Positions 5,329 to 14,561 of a stretch of DNA of 64,000 nt are shown one piece after another. The notes beneath the pieces are model-generated. The model did no database searches. It was not told the DNA's origin and saw only the letters and a list, made by a program, of their open reading frames with translations. A program made the translations under genes and the position numbers. Source of the stretch: Thiobacillus sp. (GTDB lineage: Bacteria > Pseudomonadota > Gammaproteobacteria > Burkholderiales > Thiobacillaceae); contig JAABQU010000255.1 of the NCBI GenBank assembly GCA_011391285.1, positions 28,538 through 92,537 on the forward strand, given 5' to 3'. Each line of letters opens with the position of its first letter. The stretch's first letter is position 1.

Positions 5329-5358
5329 AGAATACTAATATCCGAGTAAATCAGTCAA
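5329..5358 (-). promoter_or_regulatory. Probable sigma-70 promoter of the TrpD-like/Rieske pair
   Basis: On the minus strand TTGACT (5358-5353) and TATTCT (5334-5329) are separated by 18 bases, and the TrpD-like start lies 24 bases further on. The -35 box overlaps the lipB stop codon. This suggests the pair can be transcribed independently of the upstream elongation operon. Confidence 0.45.
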
Positions 5359-5978
5359 GAATAGATCGTGGCCCGCAACGCCTGAGCAAGCGCCCGCTCC
5401 GCCTGCTGCAAGGTCAGCGTCACGCCGAGATCGCGGCATTGGGTGACCCGCATGCCGGCGTAGCCGCAGGGATTGATGGCGGCATAAGGCGCCAGGTCCA
5501 TGTCGACGTTGAATGCCAGGCCGTGATAGGTGCAGCCGTGCTTCACGCGCAGGCCGAGCGCGGCGATTTTGGCACCGTCGACGTAGACGCCGGGCGCGCC
5601 GGCGAGGCGCGCAGCGGTCACCCCGTGTGCTGCCAGCAGGTCGATCACGGCCTGTTCCATGCGCGTCACCAACTCGCGGATGCCATAGCCGCGCCGACGC
5701 AGGTCGACCAGCACGTAGGCCACGACCTGACCCGGCCCGTGATAGGTGATCTGGCCGCCGCGGTCGATCGGCACAATGGGAATGTCGGTGGCGGCGATCA
5801 GGTGTTCGGCGCGACCGGCCTGCCCCTGGGTGTAGACCGGCGGATGTTCCAGCAGCCAGAGTTCGTCCGGCGTGTCGGGCGCGCGCTGCGCAGTGAAGTC
5901 CTGCATCGCCCGCCAGGTCGCTTCGTACTCGACCCGCCCCAAGTGGCGGATCAGTGCCCGCCCTTCGCGCTCCGTCAC
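5355..5978 (-). CDS. lipB: Octanoyl-[acyl-carrier-protein]:protein N-octanoyltransferase
   Basis: LipB moves octanoyl groups from acyl carrier protein to lipoyl domains, providing the substrate for LipA. The conserved GGQITYHGPGQVVAY stretch and the KIAALGLRVKHGCTYHG segment with the catalytic cysteine and lysine are present. I chose the GTG at 5978, which overlaps the DUF493 stop as GTGA and gives 207 residues; a GTG at 5996 would add six residues. It is the last gene of the mreB-to-lipB run. Confidence 0.95.
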   Translation of the reverse strand: MTEREGRALIRHLGRVEYEATWRAMQDFTAQRAPDTPDELWLLEHPPVYTQGQAGRAEHLIAATDIPIVPIDRGGQITYHGPGQVVAYVLVDLRRRGYGIRELVTRMEQAVIDLLAAHGVTAARLAGAPGVYVDGAKIAALGLRVKHGCTYHGLAFNVDMDLAPYAAINPCGYAGMRVTQCRDLGVTLTLQQAERALAQALRATIYS

Positions 5979-6241
5979 AATGCCATCTTCACCCACGGAT
6001 GCGACGTGATCTCGCGATACAGCGCGTCGAGCTGGGCTTTGGACGTGGCACGCACCACGCAGGTCACAGACAGGTAATTGCCGCTGCTCGACGCCCGCAT
6101 CTCGACCGTTTCGGCCCTGAAATCGGGCGCGTGGCGCTGCACCAGTTCGACCATGGTTTGCGCGAAGTCGTCGCGCCGCTCGCCCATGATCTTGACGGGA
6201 AAGTCGGTGGGGAACACCAGCAACGTTTCTTCTTCGCTCAT
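5975..6241 (-). CDS. DUF493 (YbeD-like) protein
   Basis: This 88-residue protein belongs to the YbeD/DUF493 family, a small ACT-like fold of unclear function. The segment LLVFPTDFPVKIMGE and the C-terminal HPWVKMAL are characteristic. In many proteobacteria it sits between dacA and lipB, as here, although a class IV aminotransferase has been inserted before it. Both ends overlap neighbouring genes by 4 bases (ATGA with the aminotransferase, GTGA with lipB), indicating tight translational coupling. A role in lipoylation is only suggested by position. Confidence 0.9.
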   Translation of the reverse strand: MSEEETLLVFPTDFPVKIMGERRDDFAQTMVELVQRHAPDFRAETVEMRASSSGNYLSVTCVVRATSKAQLDALYREITSHPWVKMAL

Positions 6242-7101
6242 GTGCGCATCACCTGCTGCTTGAAGGTTTGATACAAGCCGTCCATCCGCTGCGCCAGCGG
6301 ACCCGGCACCCCGGCGCCGACCGGGGTGCCGTCGAGCTTCACGATTGCCATGATTTCCTTGGTGGACGAAGTCATCCACAACTCGTCGGCAGCGCGCACC
6401 TCGGCCTCGGATATCGGCCGAATCTCGCGCGGGATGCCGTGCGCCGCGGCGACTTCCAGCACCACGTCGTAGGTCACGCCTGTCAGCATCAGGCTGGATG
6501 GCGGCGGCGTCATCAGCACGCCATCCTTCACCACGAAGATGTTGCTTGCCGCGCCTTCGGTCAGAAAGCCGTCGCGCAGCATGACGGTTTCGGCGCATTC
6601 GACGTCGATCGCCTGCTGCCGCAACAGGATATTGGCGAGGAGCGAGATGGCCTTGATGTTGCAGCGCAACCAGCGGTTGTCGACGGCGGTGACCGCGCAC
6701 ACGCCAGCCGCCTTCTGCTCGGGCGTGGACGTCACCAATGGCTGGGAGAACATGAACACGGTTGGCGCCACATCCTTGGGGAAGGCGTGGTCGCGCGGCG
6801 GCTGCCCCTCATCAGGCGTGCCGCGGGTAACCTGGATATAGAGCGATTGGTCGGTAAAGTGCTGCAGCGCGATCAGCTGCAGGATGCGGTCGCGCCATTC
6901 ATCGATGCTGTGCGGATTGGCGAGGCGGATGTTGTCGAGGCTGCCTTGCAGGCGGCGCAGGTGTTCGTCGAGGCGGAACGGCTTCTTCGAATACACCGGC
7001 ACCAACTCGTAGACACCGTCGCCGAAGACGAAACCACGGTCGAGCACCGAGATTTTCGCATCGGCAAGCGGCAGGAACTGGCCGTTCAGATAGGCGTTCA
7101 T
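6238..7101 (-). CDS. dat: D-amino acid aminotransferase (class IV)
   Basis: The 287-residue PLP enzyme belongs to fold type IV. The N-terminal NGQFLPLADAKISVLDRGF and the SVLDRGFVFGDGVYE region are typical of D-alanine transaminases; the lysine in CNIKAISLLANI is the likely PLP Schiff-base residue, and TEGAASNIFVV binds the cofactor phosphate. It interconverts D-alanine and D-glutamate with their keto acids, which fits its place among peptidoglycan genes. It overlaps dacA upstream and DUF493 downstream by ATGA. A branched-chain or aminodeoxychorismate-lyase role is less likely. Confidence 0.88.
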   Translation of the reverse strand: MNAYLNGQFLPLADAKISVLDRGFVFGDGVYELVPVYSKKPFRLDEHLRRLQGSLDNIRLANPHSIDEWRDRILQLIALQHFTDQSLYIQVTRGTPDEGQPPRDHAFPKDVAPTVFMFSQPLVTSTPEQKAAGVCAVTAVDNRWLRCNIKAISLLANILLRQQAIDVECAETVMLRDGFLTEGAASNIFVVKDGVLMTPPPSSLMLTGVTYDVVLEVAAAHGIPREIRPISEAEVRAADELWMTSSTKEIMAIVKLDGTPVGAGVPGPLAQRMDGLYQTFKQQVMRT

Positions 7102-8213
7102 TGGCCGAAGAATAGCCGGATCGAATCCCAGCCGCGACCGAAGACGCCCGCCACCGAGACATCGTGCAGCGCGACCAGCGGGTAGTCGCCGAGCGGGGCG
7201 CCATCGAGTATCAGCCGCAGCGTGCCCAGGCGCTGGCCCCGCCGAACCGGCGCCATCAGCGGCTGCTGGGTGATGAGTTCGGCCTTGACGCGAGCGGCGG
7301 CGCCACGCGGCAACAGCAGGTGAAAGTCCCGCAAAAAGCCCATGCTTACCGACGCACGCGCACCACGATAGAGGCTGGCCACCTTGACCGGCTGCTGCGC
7401 ACGATAAAGCAGCACACTGTCGAAGTTTTCAAATCCGTAATTCAGCAAGCGCAGCGTATCCTGGGTACGCTGCGCATCGGTCCGCCCCCCCAACACCACG
7501 GCGATGCGTTGCTGGTCCCCGCGTTGCGCCGACGCCGCCATGCAGTAGCCAGCCTCGGCGGTGCGCCCGACCTTGAGGCCGGTCACCGTGCTGTCGCGCC
7601 ACAACAGGCGGTTGCTGTTGTAATAGGTGATGCCCCTGAAATCGAGTTCCTTCTGCCTGAAGAAAGCCTGCCGTTCGGGAAAGTCGCGTGCCAGCGCACG
7701 TCCCAGCAGGGCAAGGTCGCGCGCGCTCGATGCATGTCCCGGCTCGGTCAGTCCGGTCGCGTTCCTGAAACGGGTTTTGCTCATGCCGAGCCGCGCGGCT
7801 TCGCCGTTCATGCGTTCGACGAATGCCGCTTCACTGCCGTCGGTTGCCGTCACCAGCGCGAGCGTGGCATCGCCAGCCGAATGCACCAGCATCGCCTGCA
7901 TCAGGGTGTCGACGCTGACCTGGTCGCCCGCCTTGAGGAACACACGCGCGCCATCGACCTGGGTCGCGGCCTCCGGCACGGTCAACGACTCGCCGAGGCT
8001 CAGCTTGTTCTTGCGAATGTCGCCCAGGAGCACGTAGGCGGTCATCAACTGCGTCAGCGACGCCGGCGCCAACGGCAGATCGGCCTGATGCGAAGCCAGC
8101 TCCTGTCCGCTTGCCTGGTCGATCAGCACCCAGGCACGCGCCGCGATTCCGCTGGGGACCGCCCAGGCCGACGCGGAGAACAGCAACGCCAGCCCAAACC
8201 CAATCCATTTCAT
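7098..8213 (-). CDS. dacA: DacA-like (PBP5 family) protein with degenerate active site
   Basis: By position (between rlpA and the DUF493/lipB pair) and full-length similarity this is the orthologue of the D,D-carboxypeptidase PBP5, which trims the terminal D-alanine of peptidoglycan. It has a signal peptide, a peptidase S11 domain and a C-terminal PBP5-type beta domain ending in a possible amphipathic anchor (SIRLFFGQ). All three signature motifs differ from the family: SxxK reads SLTQ (residues 52-55), SxN reads SAG (112-114) and KTG reads KVG (214-216). Loss of the general-base lysine suggests that it is inactive or rewired. I chose the ATG at 8213, with AAAGG 7 bases upstream, over a TTG at 8231. 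Confidence 0.88.
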   Translation of the reverse strand: MKWIGFGLALLFSASAWAVPSGIAARAWVLIDQASGQELASHQADLPLAPASLTQLMTAYVLLGDIRKNKLSLGESLTVPEAATQVDGARVFLKAGDQVSVDTLMQAMLVHSAGDATLALVTATDGSEAAFVERMNGEAARLGMSKTRFRNATGLTEPGHASSARDLALLGRALARDFPERQAFFRQKELDFRGITYYNSNRLLWRDSTVTGLKVGRTAEAGYCMAASAQRGDQQRIAVVLGGRTDAQRTQDTLRLLNYGFENFDSVLLYRAQQPVKVASLYRGARASVSMGFLRDFHLLLPRGAAARVKAELITQQPLMAPVRRGQRLGTLRLILDGAPLGDYPLVALHDVSVAGVFGRGWDSIRLFFGQ

Positions 8214-8227
8214 CCTGAAACCTTTAA

Positions 8228-9046
8228 TCAATTGACTCTGACCAGGACTGAATTCAGCGCGAGACGTTCCCGCACCCGCTCACGATCCACATGCGCATCT
8301 TCATCGCTCGGATACGGCCCGAGCTGGACGCGGTGCAGCGAATTGTCGAGCACCAGGCGCGTGCGGGACGGGTCGATCCGAAGCTCGCGCGTCAGACGGT
8401 CGCGAAGTTTCTGCGCATTCTCGGCATTCGAAAATGCGCCCAGCTGGACATACACCCCTTCCCGGATTGCTTCGCCCTGCGTGTCGTATGCGGCGGAATC
8501 CAGGCTTTCCACCCGCACCCGCGTGCTGCCCTGCTTCAGGTAATCGAGTTTATGGGCGGCGGTATACGACAGATCGATGACGCGCTTGCTGTGGAACGGA
8601 CCCCGGTCGTTGATGCGCACCACCACGGACTTGCCGTTGTTGAGTGCCGTGACCCGCGCGTAACTCGGAATCGGCAGGGTGGGATGCGCAGCGGTCATGG
8701 CATACATGTCGTAGGGCTCGCCCGACGCAGTTTTCCTGCCGTGGAAACGACGGCCGTACCACGACGCCAGCCCCTCTTCGCTATGAGCGCGCCGCTTGGT
8801 CTGCGGTGTGTAGGTGTTGCCCAGCGCGACATAGGTGCGATTGGCAAAACGGTGCAAGGGCTCCTCGCGCGGCACGGCATCGGGAACGGTGTCCAGGTCG
8901 GCCGGCGGGTTGGCCTCGGGGCCATCGTCCAGATAATATCCACCACCTTGCGGCGCCTTGGAGACTTGTTTGGCGGGGGGCGCGCTGCCGCAACCGGCAA
9001 GCGCGAGACCCAAGGCCGCCGCGATCAGAATCGGAATTACATTCAT
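8228..9046 (-). CDS. rlpA: RlpA septal ring lytic transglycosylase lipoprotein
   Basis: The N-terminus is a lipoprotein signal with lipobox LAGC, so the protein is anchored in the outer membrane. A double-psi beta-barrel domain follows (EEGLASWYGRRFHGRKTASGE is visible in part, with the conserved YDMYAMTAAHPTLP and later VVVRINDRGPF). The C-terminal 80 residues form a SPOR domain (VYVQLGAFSNAENA) that binds denuded glycan strands. The protein cleaves naked glycan in Pseudomonas. It lies between rodA and dacA as in other proteobacteria, 14 bases upstream of dacA. Confidence 0.94.
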   Translation of the reverse strand: MNVIPILIAAALGLALAGCGSAPPAKQVSKAPQGGGYYLDDGPEANPPADLDTVPDAVPREEPLHRFANRTYVALGNTYTPQTKRRAHSEEGLASWYGRRFHGRKTASGEPYDMYAMTAAHPTLPIPSYARVTALNNGKSVVVRINDRGPFHSKRVIDLSYTAAHKLDYLKQGSTRVRVESLDSAAYDTQGEAIREGVYVQLGAFSNAENAQKLRDRLTRELRIDPSRTRLVLDNSLHRVQLGPYPSDEDAHVDRERVRERLALNSVLVRVN

Positions 9047-9063: not shown

Positions 9064-10164
9064 TCAGGTTTTGTTGAGCTGGCGATGCGTCGCCACGCTC
9101 ATCACGATGCCCATTCCCAGCAGCAGCGTGATCAGCGCCGTTCCACCATAGCTCATCAGCGGCAGCGGCACCCCCACCACCGGCAGGATGCCGGACACCA
9201 TGCCCATGTTGACGAACACGTAGGTGAAGAGATTGAGGCTCAGCGTGGCGGCCATCAGCCGTCCGAACGGAGTGGGCGCGCGAGCGGCGATGACCAGGCC
9301 GCGCGCGACGATGGCCAGATACAGCCCCACCAGAAAAATGGCGCCGACATAGCCGAATTCCTCGCCGAAGACGGCGAAGATGAAGTCGGTGGTGCGCTCG
9401 GGAATGAAGTCGAGCTGCGTTTGCGTGCCCTGCATCCAGCCCTTGCCGAACAGGCCGCCCGAGCCGATCGCGATGGTGGCCTGAATGATGTGGTAGCCGG
9501 AGCCGAGTGGATCAGCGGAGGGGTCGAGCAGGGTCAGCACGCGGCGCTGCTGGTAGTCGTGCAACAGCCCCCAAATGACCGGCAGGCTCGCCGCACCCAG
9601 AACGCCGCCGCCCAGGATCACCTTCCAGGGCAGGCCAGCGAAGAACAACAGGTAGAAGCCCGACGCCCCGATCATCAGCGCCGTGCCCAGATCAGGCTGG
9701 CGCAGGATCAGCAGGAACGGCACCAGCAACAGCACGCCGCCCACCAGGAAATGCCTGGCGCGCAGCACCGCCTCGTTGCGCTGAAAATACCAGGCCAGCA
9801 TCAGGGGCAGCGCCAGCTTCAGCAGTTCGGACGGCTGAAACGCCATGAACCCCAGATCCAGCCAGCGTCGCGAGCCGTTCCGGACCTCGCCGAACAGCGC
9901 CACCGCGATCAGCAACACCACGCCAGCGACATACAGCGGCAGCCCCACCTTGGACAGCAGATGCGGCGGCACGTTGGCAACCACCACCATCACCCCCAGG
10001 GCCAGCCCGATGTTGATCAAATGACCGGTCATGCGCGCGGGACTCTGCCCCGATGCGCTCGCCACGGCTGCCAGGCTGATGCCCAGCAGCACGAGCACGA
10101 GGAGCAGCAGAATGCCATCCAGATGGCTCAGCCTGCGAATGATCCAATGGCTAGTCCGCGGCAC
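9064..10164 (-). CDS. rodA: Rod shape-determining glycosyltransferase RodA
   Basis: RodA is the SEDS-family peptidoglycan polymerase of the elongation complex and works with PBP2, encoded just upstream. The 366-residue protein has about ten membrane segments. Characteristic stretches are RQPDLGTALMI, the FIPERTTDFIFAVFGEEFG region and the C-terminal VGVPLPLMSYGGTAL. The start is a GTG that overlaps the end of mrdA by 14 bases. It is followed after 17 bases by rlpA. Confidence 0.96.
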   Translation of the reverse strand: MPRTSHWIIRRLSHLDGILLLLVLVLLGISLAAVASASGQSPARMTGHLINIGLALGVMVVVANVPPHLLSKVGLPLYVAGVVLLIAVALFGEVRNGSRRWLDLGFMAFQPSELLKLALPLMLAWYFQRNEAVLRARHFLVGGVLLLVPFLLILRQPDLGTALMIGASGFYLLFFAGLPWKVILGGGVLGAASLPVIWGLLHDYQQRRVLTLLDPSADPLGSGYHIIQATIAIGSGGLFGKGWMQGTQTQLDFIPERTTDFIFAVFGEEFGYVGAIFLVGLYLAIVARGLVIAARAPTPFGRLMAATLSLNLFTYVFVNMGMVSGILPVVGVPLPLMSYGGTALITLLLGMGIVMSVATHRQLNKT

Positions 10165-12040
10165 TTTCCGTCTCCAATGGCAAGTCTCCAGGGCGTTTCC
10201 CGGTCAGGTAATAATCAAATACCGCGCGCGCGATCGGCGCGGCCGTGCCGCTGCCCGAGCCGCCGTTTTCCACCATCACCGCCACCACGATGGTGGGATT
10301 CGCGGCCGGCGCATAGGCGATGAACAGCGCGTGATCTCGATGCTCGCGCGCCAACCGGCTGGCGTCGTACTTTGCGCCCTGCTTGATGCCGACCACCTGA
10401 GCGGTGCCGGTCTTGCCGGCGATGGCATAGGGCGCGCCGGCTGCAGATCTGGCTGCGGTACCCCCCGGACGCATCACGTCCATCATGCCTTCGCGTACCA
10501 GGGCAAGGTGCGCCGGGGTGATCGGCACCTGGCCACGCACCACGCCAGGAATAGGCTGCCAGTCCTGGGCCAGCGGCTCGCGCATCGCCTGCACCAGCCG
10601 CGGCTCGATCCGCTTGCCGCCGTTGGCCAGCATGGCGGCCGCCGTTGCCAGCTGCAGCGGCGTGGTCAGATGGTAGCCCTGGCCAATGCCCGCAATCACC
10701 GTCTCGCCGGGATACCAGGGCTGCTTGAAGCGGCGCCGCTTCCAATCGCGGGAGGGAAGCAGACCGGCCGACTCGCCGTCGAGATCGATGCCCGTTTTTT
10801 CGCCCAGGCCGAACTGCGCCAGATAGTCGTGCATGCGGTCGATCCCCATGTCCACCGCCAGCTTGTAATAATAGGTATCGCAGGACTGCGAAATGGACCG
10901 GCGCAGATCGACCACGCCATGGCCGCCGCGCTTCCAGTCGCGAAACTGGTGCCTGCTGTTGGGCAGGCTGAAATGGCCCGGATCGACGATGCTGTCCGTG
11001 GGCTTGCGCAACCCCAGCTCCAGCCCGGCCAGCGCCATCAGCGGCTTGATGGTCGAGCCGGGCGGATAGACGCCGCGCAGCGCGCGGTTCACCATCGGGC
11101 GATCGGGCGATTCGTTGAGCGACTTCCAGGTTTCCGGATCGATGCCGTCGACGAACAGGTTGGGATCGAATCCCGGTTTTGAGACCAGCGCCAGCACCCC
11201 GCCGGTATTGGGATCGAGCGCCACCAGTCCACCCAGGAAATCGCCGAACGCCTGCTCGGCCACCGCCTGCAGTTCCGCATCGAGATGCAGGCGCAAATCC
11301 TTGCCAGGCACCGGTGGGATCCGCGACAGCATGCGCACCGCACGGCCGCTGGCGTCGGTCTCCATCTGGTCGAAACCGGTGCGGCCGTGCAGCAGGGCTT
11401 CATAACTCTGTTCCAGCCCGGTCTTGCCGATGTAAGCGCTGCCGCGGTAATTCCGCTCGATGTTCTGCTCGCGCAGGCGTTCCAGGTCGCGATCGTTGAT
11501 GCGTCCAATGAAGCCCACCACATGCGCCATACCGGGCCCGGCTTGGTAGTTGCGGAACAGCCGCGCCTTCACCTCGACGCCCGGCAGTCGATAGCGGTTG
11601 GCGGCCAGAATCGCCACCTCCTCGTCGGTCAGCTTGCTTTTCAGCGGCACCGTTTCGAATTCGTGCGATTCGGAAAGCAGGCGCCGAAAACGCCGCACTT
11701 GGCCGGGGGTGATCTCGATCAGTTCGCCCAGTTCGGTCAGCGTGGTTTCGAGGTCAGCCGTCCTGGCCCGCGTGATTTCGAGCGTGTAGGCGGAATAGTT
11801 CTCCGCCAGGATGCGGCCGTTGCGGTCCAGGATCAGGCCGCGATTGGGCGCGGTGGGCACCAGCGAGATGCGGTTGCTCTCGGCGCGCTCGATGTAGTGT
11901 TCATGCTGTATGACCTGCAGATAAAACGCACGCCCCAGCAGGATGATCGCCAGCATCGCAACAAAGGCCCCACCAGCCTTGAGCCGGCCGTGAAAACGCG
12001 CCAGCTCGCTGTCGAGATTCTTCAGGGGGGTCAGCCTCAC
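10151..12040 (-). CDS. mrdA: Penicillin-binding protein 2
   Basis: PBP2 is the transpeptidase of cell elongation. The order is a short cytoplasmic tail, one membrane anchor (near residues 20-40), a pedestal domain and a transpeptidase domain. All catalytic motifs are intact: SxxK in GSTIK, SxD in SQSCD and KTG in GKTGTAQV, in contrast to the DacA protein of the same operon. I chose the GTG at 12040, which overlaps the mreD stop as GTGA, giving 629 residues, the usual length. Confidence 0.96.
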   Translation of the reverse strand: MRLTPLKNLDSELARFHGRLKAGGAFVAMLAIILLGRAFYLQVIQHEHYIERAESNRISLVPTAPNRGLILDRNGRILAENYSAYTLEITRARTADLETTLTELGELIEITPGQVRRFRRLLSESHEFETVPLKSKLTDEEVAILAANRYRLPGVEVKARLFRNYQAGPGMAHVVGFIGRINDRDLERLREQNIERNYRGSAYIGKTGLEQSYEALLHGRTGFDQMETDASGRAVRMLSRIPPVPGKDLRLHLDAELQAVAEQAFGDFLGGLVALDPNTGGVLALVSKPGFDPNLFVDGIDPETWKSLNESPDRPMVNRALRGVYPPGSTIKPLMALAGLELGLRKPTDSIVDPGHFSLPNSRHQFRDWKRGGHGVVDLRRSISQSCDTYYYKLAVDMGIDRMHDYLAQFGLGEKTGIDLDGESAGLLPSRDWKRRRFKQPWYPGETVIAGIGQGYHLTTPLQLATAAAMLANGGKRIEPRLVQAMREPLAQDWQPIPGVVRGQVPITPAHLALVREGMMDVMRPGGTAARSAAGAPYAIAGKTGTAQVVGIKQGAKYDASRLAREHRDHALFIAYAPAANPTIVVAVMVENGGSGSGTAAPIARAVFDYYLTGKRPGDLPLETESAAD

Positions 12041-12537
12041 GCGCGATCCTGCATTCCCTTGCCGTGCCACAGCCTCTGAAAACCTGCCACCAGATACCAC
12101 AGCACGGTGCCACTGATCACCGGCAGCAGCACGGCCAAGTCGGCCGGCGGATTGACCGCCAGCCAACCCACCAGCAGCACGGTCAGTTGCACCGTCAGCA
12201 GAATGGGGAACAGCTGCCCGGCCTGGCGCAACGGATCGAACTGCAGCAGCCGCAGGCGCAAAAACAGCAGCAGATACACGCCGACCACATAGCCGATGGC
12301 ATGCTGGCCGAACACCACGCCATCCTGAAAGTCGGCCAGCAATCCCAGAAAGAAGGCCGTTGTAAAGCCGATGCGCGCAGGCTGGTGCAGGGACCAGAAC
12401 AGGACGCCGACCAGCACAAAATCGGGACGCAGGGCCAAGGCCCAGCCCGTCCAGGGCATTTGCTCCAGCAGCACGGCCAGGAACAGCGTACCGAGAATGC
12501 GGCGCCAGCTTCCGTGGTTCGGGTCAGTCGGACTCAT
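12037..12537 (-). CDS. mreD: Rod shape-determining protein MreD
   Basis: This 166-residue integral membrane protein has five or six membrane segments and lies between mreC and mrdA, as in most rod-shaped proteobacteria. Segments such as LRPDFVLVGVLFWSL and the GLLADFQDGVVFGQHAIGY region match MreD. The ATG at 12537 overlaps the mreC stop (ATGA). It connects the MreB filament system to the peptidoglycan synthases RodA and PBP2. Confidence 0.93.
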   Translation of the reverse strand: MSPTDPNHGSWRRILGTLFLAVLLEQMPWTGWALALRPDFVLVGVLFWSLHQPARIGFTTAFFLGLLADFQDGVVFGQHAIGYVVGVYLLLFLRLRLLQFDPLRQAGQLFPILLTVQLTVLLVGWLAVNPPADLAVLLPVISGTVLWYLVAGFQRLWHGKGMQDRA

Positions 12538-13379
12538 GGCTTTGTGACCTGCGGATCGGCAACCAGCACCAGCACGGCACGGGAATGCTCGAGGCCCGCC
12601 AACGGCACGCATTCCACCCGTAGATAAGGACTGGATTGCGAACGGGAAACCCGGCCGACCCGCGCCACCGGTATGCCGGCCGGATACACCCGGTCGATGC
12701 CCGAGGTCAGCAAGCGATCGCCGACCTGGATATCGGTCTGCGCCGGCATGTAGCGCAATTCCAGTTGTCCCTGCCCGCCGCCGGCAGCCAGGCCGCGCTG
12801 GCCGGTGCGCTCGACAACCACCGGCGTAAGGTGCCCCGGGCTGCTTACCAGCGTGACATCGCTCGAGCCCGGATACACCCGACTCAACTGCCCCACCAGC
12901 CCCTCCGCATCGACCACCGGCAGACCGCTGCGCAAGCCGGTTCCGGCGCCCTGGTCCAGGGTAATACGCTGGGAAAACCAGTCATGTCCCTTGTATAACA
13001 GGGCGGCACGCACCACCTGCTGGCCGGGGCGGGTCTGCAGTTGCAGCAGCGTGCGCAATTCGGCATTTTCGCGGCCCAGATCCCGTGCCGCGTTCACCCC
13101 GAGCATCAGCTGTGCACGTTCGGCCAGCAGGGCATCGCGTTCTTTTTGCAGAAGGCGGTGGCGGGTAAAGAATCCGCCGAGTTCGGCGACGATATCGCCG
13201 GGGGCGCGCATGGCCTCGCGCACCGGTTGCAGCAGCACCGAGAACCCGCTGCGCAAGCCGTCGAGTGCCCGATAGCGCACATCGAGCACCACGAAAGACA
13301 AGCCTATGAGCAGCCAGATGAGCAGGCGGGCCGTCGGACCCAGCCCGCGGGCGAACATGAGCTGGCCTGGCGTCGCCAT
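12534..13379 (-). CDS. mreC: Rod shape-determining protein MreC
   Basis: MreC is a bitopic periplasmic scaffold. It has one membrane segment near residues 15-35, a coiled-coil region (RHRLLQKERDALLAERAQLM) and two beta-barrel lobes with the typical GLVGQLSRVYPGSSDV and TSGIDRVYPAGIPVA stretches. The ATG at 13379 gives 281 residues; a second in-frame ATG seven codons later is possible. It follows mreB after 37 bases and overlaps mreD. Confidence 0.95.
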   Translation of the reverse strand: MATPGQLMFARGLGPTARLLIWLLIGLSFVVLDVRYRALDGLRSGFSVLLQPVREAMRAPGDIVAELGGFFTRHRLLQKERDALLAERAQLMLGVNAARDLGRENAELRTLLQLQTRPGQQVVRAALLYKGHDWFSQRITLDQGAGTGLRSGLPVVDAEGLVGQLSRVYPGSSDVTLVSSPGHLTPVVVERTGQRGLAAGGGQGQLELRYMPAQTDIQVGDRLLTSGIDRVYPAGIPVARVGRVSRSQSSPYLRVECVPLAGLEHSRAVLVLVADPQVTKP

Positions 13380-13416
13380 CAGCCGTCCCTGCCAGCAGAA
13401 CCGAGTGCCGCCGCGT

Positions 13417-14561
<1,145 letters not shown>

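Follow-up and report, generated by a model that had tools for sequence, protein, structure and literature searches.

Why bacteria keep several seemingly redundant D,D-carboxypeptidases, one of which (PBP6a) is nearly inactive, is an open question, and a locus of Thiobacillus sp. poses it anew. In the window, by which we mean the whole 64,000-nucleotide stretch of DNA analysed here, the elongasome genes run in the order mreB-mreC-mreD-mrdA-rodA-rlpA-dacA-dat-DUF493-lipB, every gene on the minus strand, and the dacA stop codon shares letters with the start codon of the aminotransferase gene (ATGA). The original prediction, made from the letters of the window, held that the SxxK, SxN and KTG motifs of the dacA product (hereafter pseudo-DacA) have become SLTQ, SAG and KVG, and this was borne out when the minus-strand codons were re-read (TCG CTG ACG CAG at the first site). 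The SxxK Lys, the SxN Asn and the KTG Thr/Ser that mark an active DacA are all absent. What, then, does a DacA without these residues do among the genes of the elongasome?

Homology identifies the product of 7098-8213 as a PBP5-type S11 protein of full length (Table 1), with both of its domains above the gathering score (Peptidase_S11, 207.9 bits; PBP5_C, 58.7 bits). Its predicted structure has a pLDDT of 91.7 and the PBP5 fold; the match to E. coli PBP5 and PBP6 spans some 340-350 residues. In the C-terminal helix, R360, W362, D363 and L367 are conserved across all three DacA groups treated below, namely pseudo-DacA, the resident DacA of relatives, and a second DacA of the clade.

Table 1. 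Features of the elongasome locus, in positions of the window
Feature	Position	Strand	Basis
pseudo-DacA, S11/PBP5-type, 371 aa	7098..8213	-	domain search, structure model, structure matches
N-terminal signal-peptide-like helix, residues 1-18 (about)	8160..8213	-	sequence; model helix 2-16
SxxK site = SLTQ, residues 52-55	8049..8060	-	codons TCG CTG ACG CAG
SxN site = SAG, residues 112-114	7872..7880	-	codons read
KTG site = KVG-RT, residues 214-218	7560..7574	-	codons read
PBP5 C-terminal domain, residues 264-352	7158..7424	-	PF07943
C-terminal helix, probable membrane anchor, residues 357-369	7107..7145	-	model helix
D-amino-acid aminotransferase (dat)	6238..7101	-	start overlaps pseudo-DacA stop
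DUF493 gene	5975..6241	-	
lipB	5355..5996	-	
rlpA (DPBB + SPOR)	8228..9046	-	
rodA	9064..10164	-	
mrdA (PBP2)	10151..12166	-	
mreD	12037..12612	-	
mreC	12534..13478	-	
mreB	13417..14508	-	

Motif loss in the Thiobacillus-type clade

A database search with pseudo-DacA returned 7770 matches, of which the best 120, the window's own protein included, are 77-100% identical and carry SLTQ without exception (120/120). When 84,980 species genomes of a genome collection were scanned with two peptide patterns, 54 loci were recovered; one pattern contains SLTQ, and relatives with other replacements may therefore have been missed. Fifty-two of the 54 belong to a Thiobacillus-type clade that includes the isolates T. 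denitrificans RG (L006) and T. thioparus DSM 505 (L036). These clade loci, one of which (L052) had to be read in two pieces because of a frameshift, have SLTQ in 51 cases and SLTH in one, and none retains the SxN Asn or the KTG Thr. Two loci with other names, L012 (contig titled Rhizobium sp.) and L020 (Sulfuriferula multivorans), have pseudo-DacAs with a tree position within the Thiobacillus clade, and their contigs are probably misnamed or mixed MAGs.

For a residue-by-residue comparison, 51 clade loci (without L052) were pooled with the window's protein and 119 other proteins from the database; these 171 rows were reduced to 167 distinct relatives by removing rows contained in other rows. 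All three motifs are altered in 167/167, which answers in the positive the search of related genomes that the original prediction had proposed. The SxxK Lys (position 55) is Q in 166 and H in one, the SxN Asn (position 114) is S in 93, G in 67, V in 4, T in 2 and A in 1, and the KTG Thr (position 215) is V in 156 and A in 11. Position 217 has undergone a His-to-Arg change (R 163, H 4). An Arg at position 200, present in 55/57 resident and 56/56 second DacAs, is lost in 167/167 pseudo-DacAs (G 113, A 37, S 11, D 6). A reciprocal swap of Arg between positions 200 and 217 was considered and rejected, the two not being strictly coupled: His217 also occurs in two sequences whose position 200 is Gly or Ala. 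Invariant among the 167 are S52, R206, K214, G216, T218 and R249; S112 is found in 166 (T in one), and G88 is also kept.

Intact DacAs and the history of the locus

Outside the clade, the DacA at this locus is intact. We surveyed 117 genomes of one family (that of genome G002), 56 of them in the clade and 58 others; the remaining three (G011, G017 and G052) gave a weak match or none and were left unclassified. The locus DacA of the 58 relatives has SLTK in 57 and SMTK in one, SxN in all 58, and KTG in 57 and KSG in one. Their fetched stretches contain rlpA in 48 cases and dat in the other 10, indicating the same kind of locus, and it is because of its position in that locus that pseudo-DacA is identified as the resident DacA of its own clade.

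Within the clade, 53 of the 56 genomes have a full-length pseudo-DacA match of 655-771 bits, with an internal stop in 0/53; the motifs themselves were read in the 52 scan loci and the database proteins rather than in each of these 53 genomes. A true loss of the gene is unsupported in G090, where it runs off the contig end, and in G088, a genome assigned to the clade by its second DacA alone, where pseudo-DacA, dat and rodA matches are all absent and the assembly probably lacks the locus. In the third, the MAG G075, a frameshift near residues 182-207 splits pseudo-DacA (L052 = L140, 1085-2120), which may reflect either a genuine loss or a fault in the assembly.

The clade also has another DacA. 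The eight clade genomes searched first have three S11 genes each, namely pseudo-DacA, an intact DacA away from the locus (SLTK, SGN and KTGH in 8/8) and a PBP7-like protein (SITK, SDN and KTG in 8/8). In the wider survey the second intact DacA was found in 55/56 clade genomes, the exception being a MAG, G082. An intact S11 carboxypeptidase of the kind that the original prediction had suggested looking for is thus present, and the notion that the clade has no other active DacA is rejected. As a control, the 120 relatives listed for the second DacA were read: SLTK, SGN and KTG are present in 119, and the remaining sequence is cut before SxxK. The gene lies outside the elongasome locus, with neighbours that differ between the two genomes viewed (L125 and L128), and it appears to perform the carboxypeptidase chemistry. 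Having a second DacA is not in itself enough to bring about the loss of the first: G048, a relative, combines an intact DacA at the locus with a distant second intact DacA (L106).

In a quick tree of 173 rows, 51 pseudo-DacAs form one clade (SH-aLRT 100), as do 56 second DacAs from 55 genomes (SH-aLRT 100), and the pseudo-DacA clade has support of 100/100 in two smaller, careful trees of 34 and 46 rows. At the level of sequence, these trees show a single origin for the loss of catalytic residues in the Thiobacillus clade. The place of the second DacA varies among them. The 34-row tree joins pseudo- and resident DacAs to the exclusion of the second DacA (97/95), and the 173-row tree, in which long branches were flagged, joins the second DacA with 45/57 residents (SH-aLRT 88). 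A 46-row check tree, with distant rows omitted, groups pseudo-DacAs with residents (68/95) and does not reject a grouping of residents with the second DacA (p-AU 0.42). In a search of solved structures, the second DacA is most similar to Pseudomonas PBP5 and scores 536 bits against P. aeruginosa PBP5, compared with 313 bits for a resident DacA and 264 bits for pseudo-DacA. This similarity suggests a gammaproteobacterial origin for the second DacA; its best 120 proteins are mostly without organism name, and the named ones are mostly Thiobacillus. The second DacA may have been acquired or may be an old paralogue; the trees decide neither between these two histories nor on the order of its gain and the loss in pseudo-DacA. 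None of this history, neither the intact same-locus DacA of relatives nor the clade's second DacA, could be seen by the original prediction.

Selection and a separate Lys-to-Gln group

Selection was gauged by the median NG86 dN/dS over pairs with dS of 0.1-1.5, a crude measure at such dS values. Pseudo-DacA gave 0.199 (1181 pairs); the other genes of the locus gave 0.201 (rlpA), 0.121 (rodA), 0.151 (mrdA), 0.168 (dat), 0.197 (lipB), 0.214 (mreC) and 0.267 (mreD), and the intact groups 0.237 (second DacA) and 0.335 (resident DacAs of relatives). For the S11 domain the value is 0.175 in pseudo-DacA versus 0.176 in the second DacA; for the C-terminal domain it is 0.244, versus 0.472 in residents and 0.487 in the second DacA. 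The C-terminal helix of pseudo-DacA is strongly constrained, at 0.139. Seventy columns are invariant in both active groups, and pseudo-DacA keeps 53 of them and changes 17, from which we claim no enrichment of losses at catalytic positions. Judged by these substitution rates, pseudo-DacA is held by purifying selection, which together with the missing catalytic residues qualifies it as a putative pseudoenzyme.

A loss of the SxxK Lys was also met elsewhere. The scan locus L053, on a Sulfuricaulis-labelled contig outside the Thiobacillus clade, has SLTQ and keeps SAN and KTG. The family of its genome comprises 20 genomes, 18 with an S11 match, and 17 DacA-type proteins were read, 15 of which retain SxxK, SxN and KTG. 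The other two are the G118 DacA (L147 / L053; SLTQ, SAN, KTG) and the G132 DacA (L234 / L256), which has RLTQ, SAT and KAG, its nucleophile Ser replaced by Arg. Both altered genes adjoin rlpA; no second DacA was found in G132 or G118, both fragmented assemblies. In the 34-row tree the two do not group together, and both fall outside the Thiobacillus clade. The 120 top matches for G132 as query include P0242, which is the query's own protein, P0243, P0244 and P0245; these four have RLTQ, KLTQ, SLTQ and ALTQ, respectively, with Gln at position 249 in 4/4. P0319 has SLTQ as its sole change, and six further proteins have single or double odd KTG residues, one of the six being cut before SxxK. P0242-P0245 and P0319 were compared by motif reading. 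The change of the SxxK Lys to Gln has thus arisen separately from Thiobacillus, in a gammaproteobacterial group labelled Acidiferrobacteraceae. Two DacA-type proteins of 361 and 381 aa (P0300 and P0301), both named Sulfuricaulis limicola and on a 2,864,672-base contig, look like products of one genome and possibly of a duplication.

The gammaproteobacterial LTQ DacAs thus share with pseudo-DacA the replacement of the SxxK Lys by Gln and, in G132 and G118, the place beside rlpA. They differ in that P0242-P0245 also change at the nucleophile Ser position and at position 249. Ser52 and R249 are invariant in Thiobacillus, whereas in this group the Ser position drifts and position 249 is Gln, a contrast that rests on four proteins and from which we conclude that the Thiobacillus pocket is probably still in use.

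Candidate roles of a disarmed DacA

It is highly probable that the Thiobacillus elongasome locus encodes a conserved pseudoenzyme. That the motif codons were misread in sequencing or assembly (sequencing errors were named by the original prediction as what would refute it) is rejected and has a negligible probability, as the same kind of change is present in 167 distinct sequences and in the isolates L006 and L036. That the gene is a decaying relic, left after another DacA took over, is very improbable: the second intact DacA and the one frameshift-split MAG copy (G075, L052) would fit such decay, but the dN/dS of 0.20, the frame open in all 53 full-length matches and the fixation of specific new residues (Q55, R217, V215) speak against it, and the selection test and open frames rule it out as a general account. 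A pure scaffold, whose fold and anchor would partner RlpA, PBP2 or RodA structurally while the old pocket has no role, we regard as doubtful. The site of the gene between rlpA and dat, the constraint on the C-terminal helix and the loss of the catalytic Lys, Asn and Thr and of the Arg at 200 are what a scaffold would predict, but S52, K214, G216, T218 and R249 are invariant, and it is in the separate LTQ group that the Ser and position 249 change. Altered chemistry is unlikely; on this account a Lys-less S11 enzyme would act on some substrate through Ser52, Ser112 and Lys214 with the new Arg217. These residues are kept in 167, 166, 167 and 163 of the 167 sequences, and the S11 domain is constrained as much as that of the active second DacA. 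Against this, the general-base Lys, the SxN Asn and the KTG Thr are absent, and with 53/70 active-invariant columns retained anyway, some retention of residues is expected regardless.

The expectation that D,D-carboxypeptidase activity is unlikely in an otherwise intact protein has gained support from the clade-wide loss, the purifying selection and the intact second DacA. We infer that pseudo-DacA does not trim pentapeptides and that penicillin does not readily acylate it. Among the roles first proposed for it (a scaffold, a lectin-like pseudoenzyme or an enzyme with new chemistry), the data lean towards those in which the pocket is used and away from a pure scaffold. Our preferred reading, a disarmed and selected DacA that binds stem peptides or active DacA, we consider as a whole evenly poised between right and wrong, and if the protein is indeed a pseudoenzyme, a part as stem-peptide guard or DacA regulator has about an even chance. 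Pseudo-DacA, encoded with PBP2 and RodA, would use its C-terminal helix as an anchor in the inner membrane and would bind the stem peptides of nascent peptidoglycan, or active DacA, without hydrolysis; such binding would shield pentapeptide donors at the elongasome and tune the extent of trimming by active DacA. The residue evidence for a guard is mixed, since S52, G88 and R249 are kept, whereas the Arg at 200 is lost and 217 is changed; S52 and K214 may also have been conserved for structural reasons. Positions 200 and 217 align with Arg194 and T212 of E. coli PBP6, and the loss of such peptide contacts weakens the case for peptide binding; R194 salt-bridges the peptide in 3ITB (PMC9320039). 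A bolder form, which we advance only tentatively, is an elongasome D-Ala-D-Ala 'reader', whose cleft without a general base, its Ser-Ser-Lys core and new Arg fixed by selection, would bind nascent stem peptides, or react with them Lys-independently, and so control trimming by the second DacA, with such conversion of an elongasome DacA having occurred more than once.

The DacA/PBP5 family (PF00768 and PF07943; E. coli and P. aeruginosa PBP5) has the catalytic Lys, Asn and Thr that are replaced in the clade. The LytM fold is unrelated to the DacA fold. As in inactive LytM regulators such as DipM, a cell-wall hydrolase fold would have been reused as a non-catalytic regulator, although DipM, unlike pseudo-DacA, has reported partners (PMC10336132). 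A closer likeness is to E. coli PBP6a (DacC), a DacA-type protein that has little or no carboxypeptidase activity, whose presence accompanied more pentapeptides and which may protect them (PMC4916385, PMC5596342). PBP6 keeps S-L-T-K, S-G-N and K-T-G (PMC9320039), whereas the Thiobacillus loss is visible in sequence. PMC5596342 also describes self-interaction of DacA-type enzymes and active-site mutants with altered dimer form and cell shape, among them inactive E. coli PBP5(S44G), which shows a different self-interaction and altered shape. According to PMC2909392, the shape function of PBP5 requires the C-terminal anchor, and PBP5(S44G) lost midcell localisation, so that a dead DacA need not follow its substrate. 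In our literature search, covering titles and abstract openings among the matches listed and few subscription journals, no S11/DacA pseudoenzyme and no Thiobacillus DacA was found, and the nearest of the matches listed was the inactive-PBP6a proposal.

The 'intact but dead' reading is well supported: throughout the clade, a DacA pseudoenzyme accompanies an intact DacA that was possibly acquired. A clade with a disarmed but kept elongasome DacA and one active copy amounts to a natural separation-of-function experiment, in which a non-catalytic DacA role is testable by one gene deletion without loss of carboxypeptidase activity.

The other scan locus outside the clade, L054 / L152, encodes a distant S11 protein with SLTQ, SAN and KTG in the Rhizobium-labelled MAG G119, and this genome's two other S11 proteins (L146 and L155) retain the SxxK Lys.
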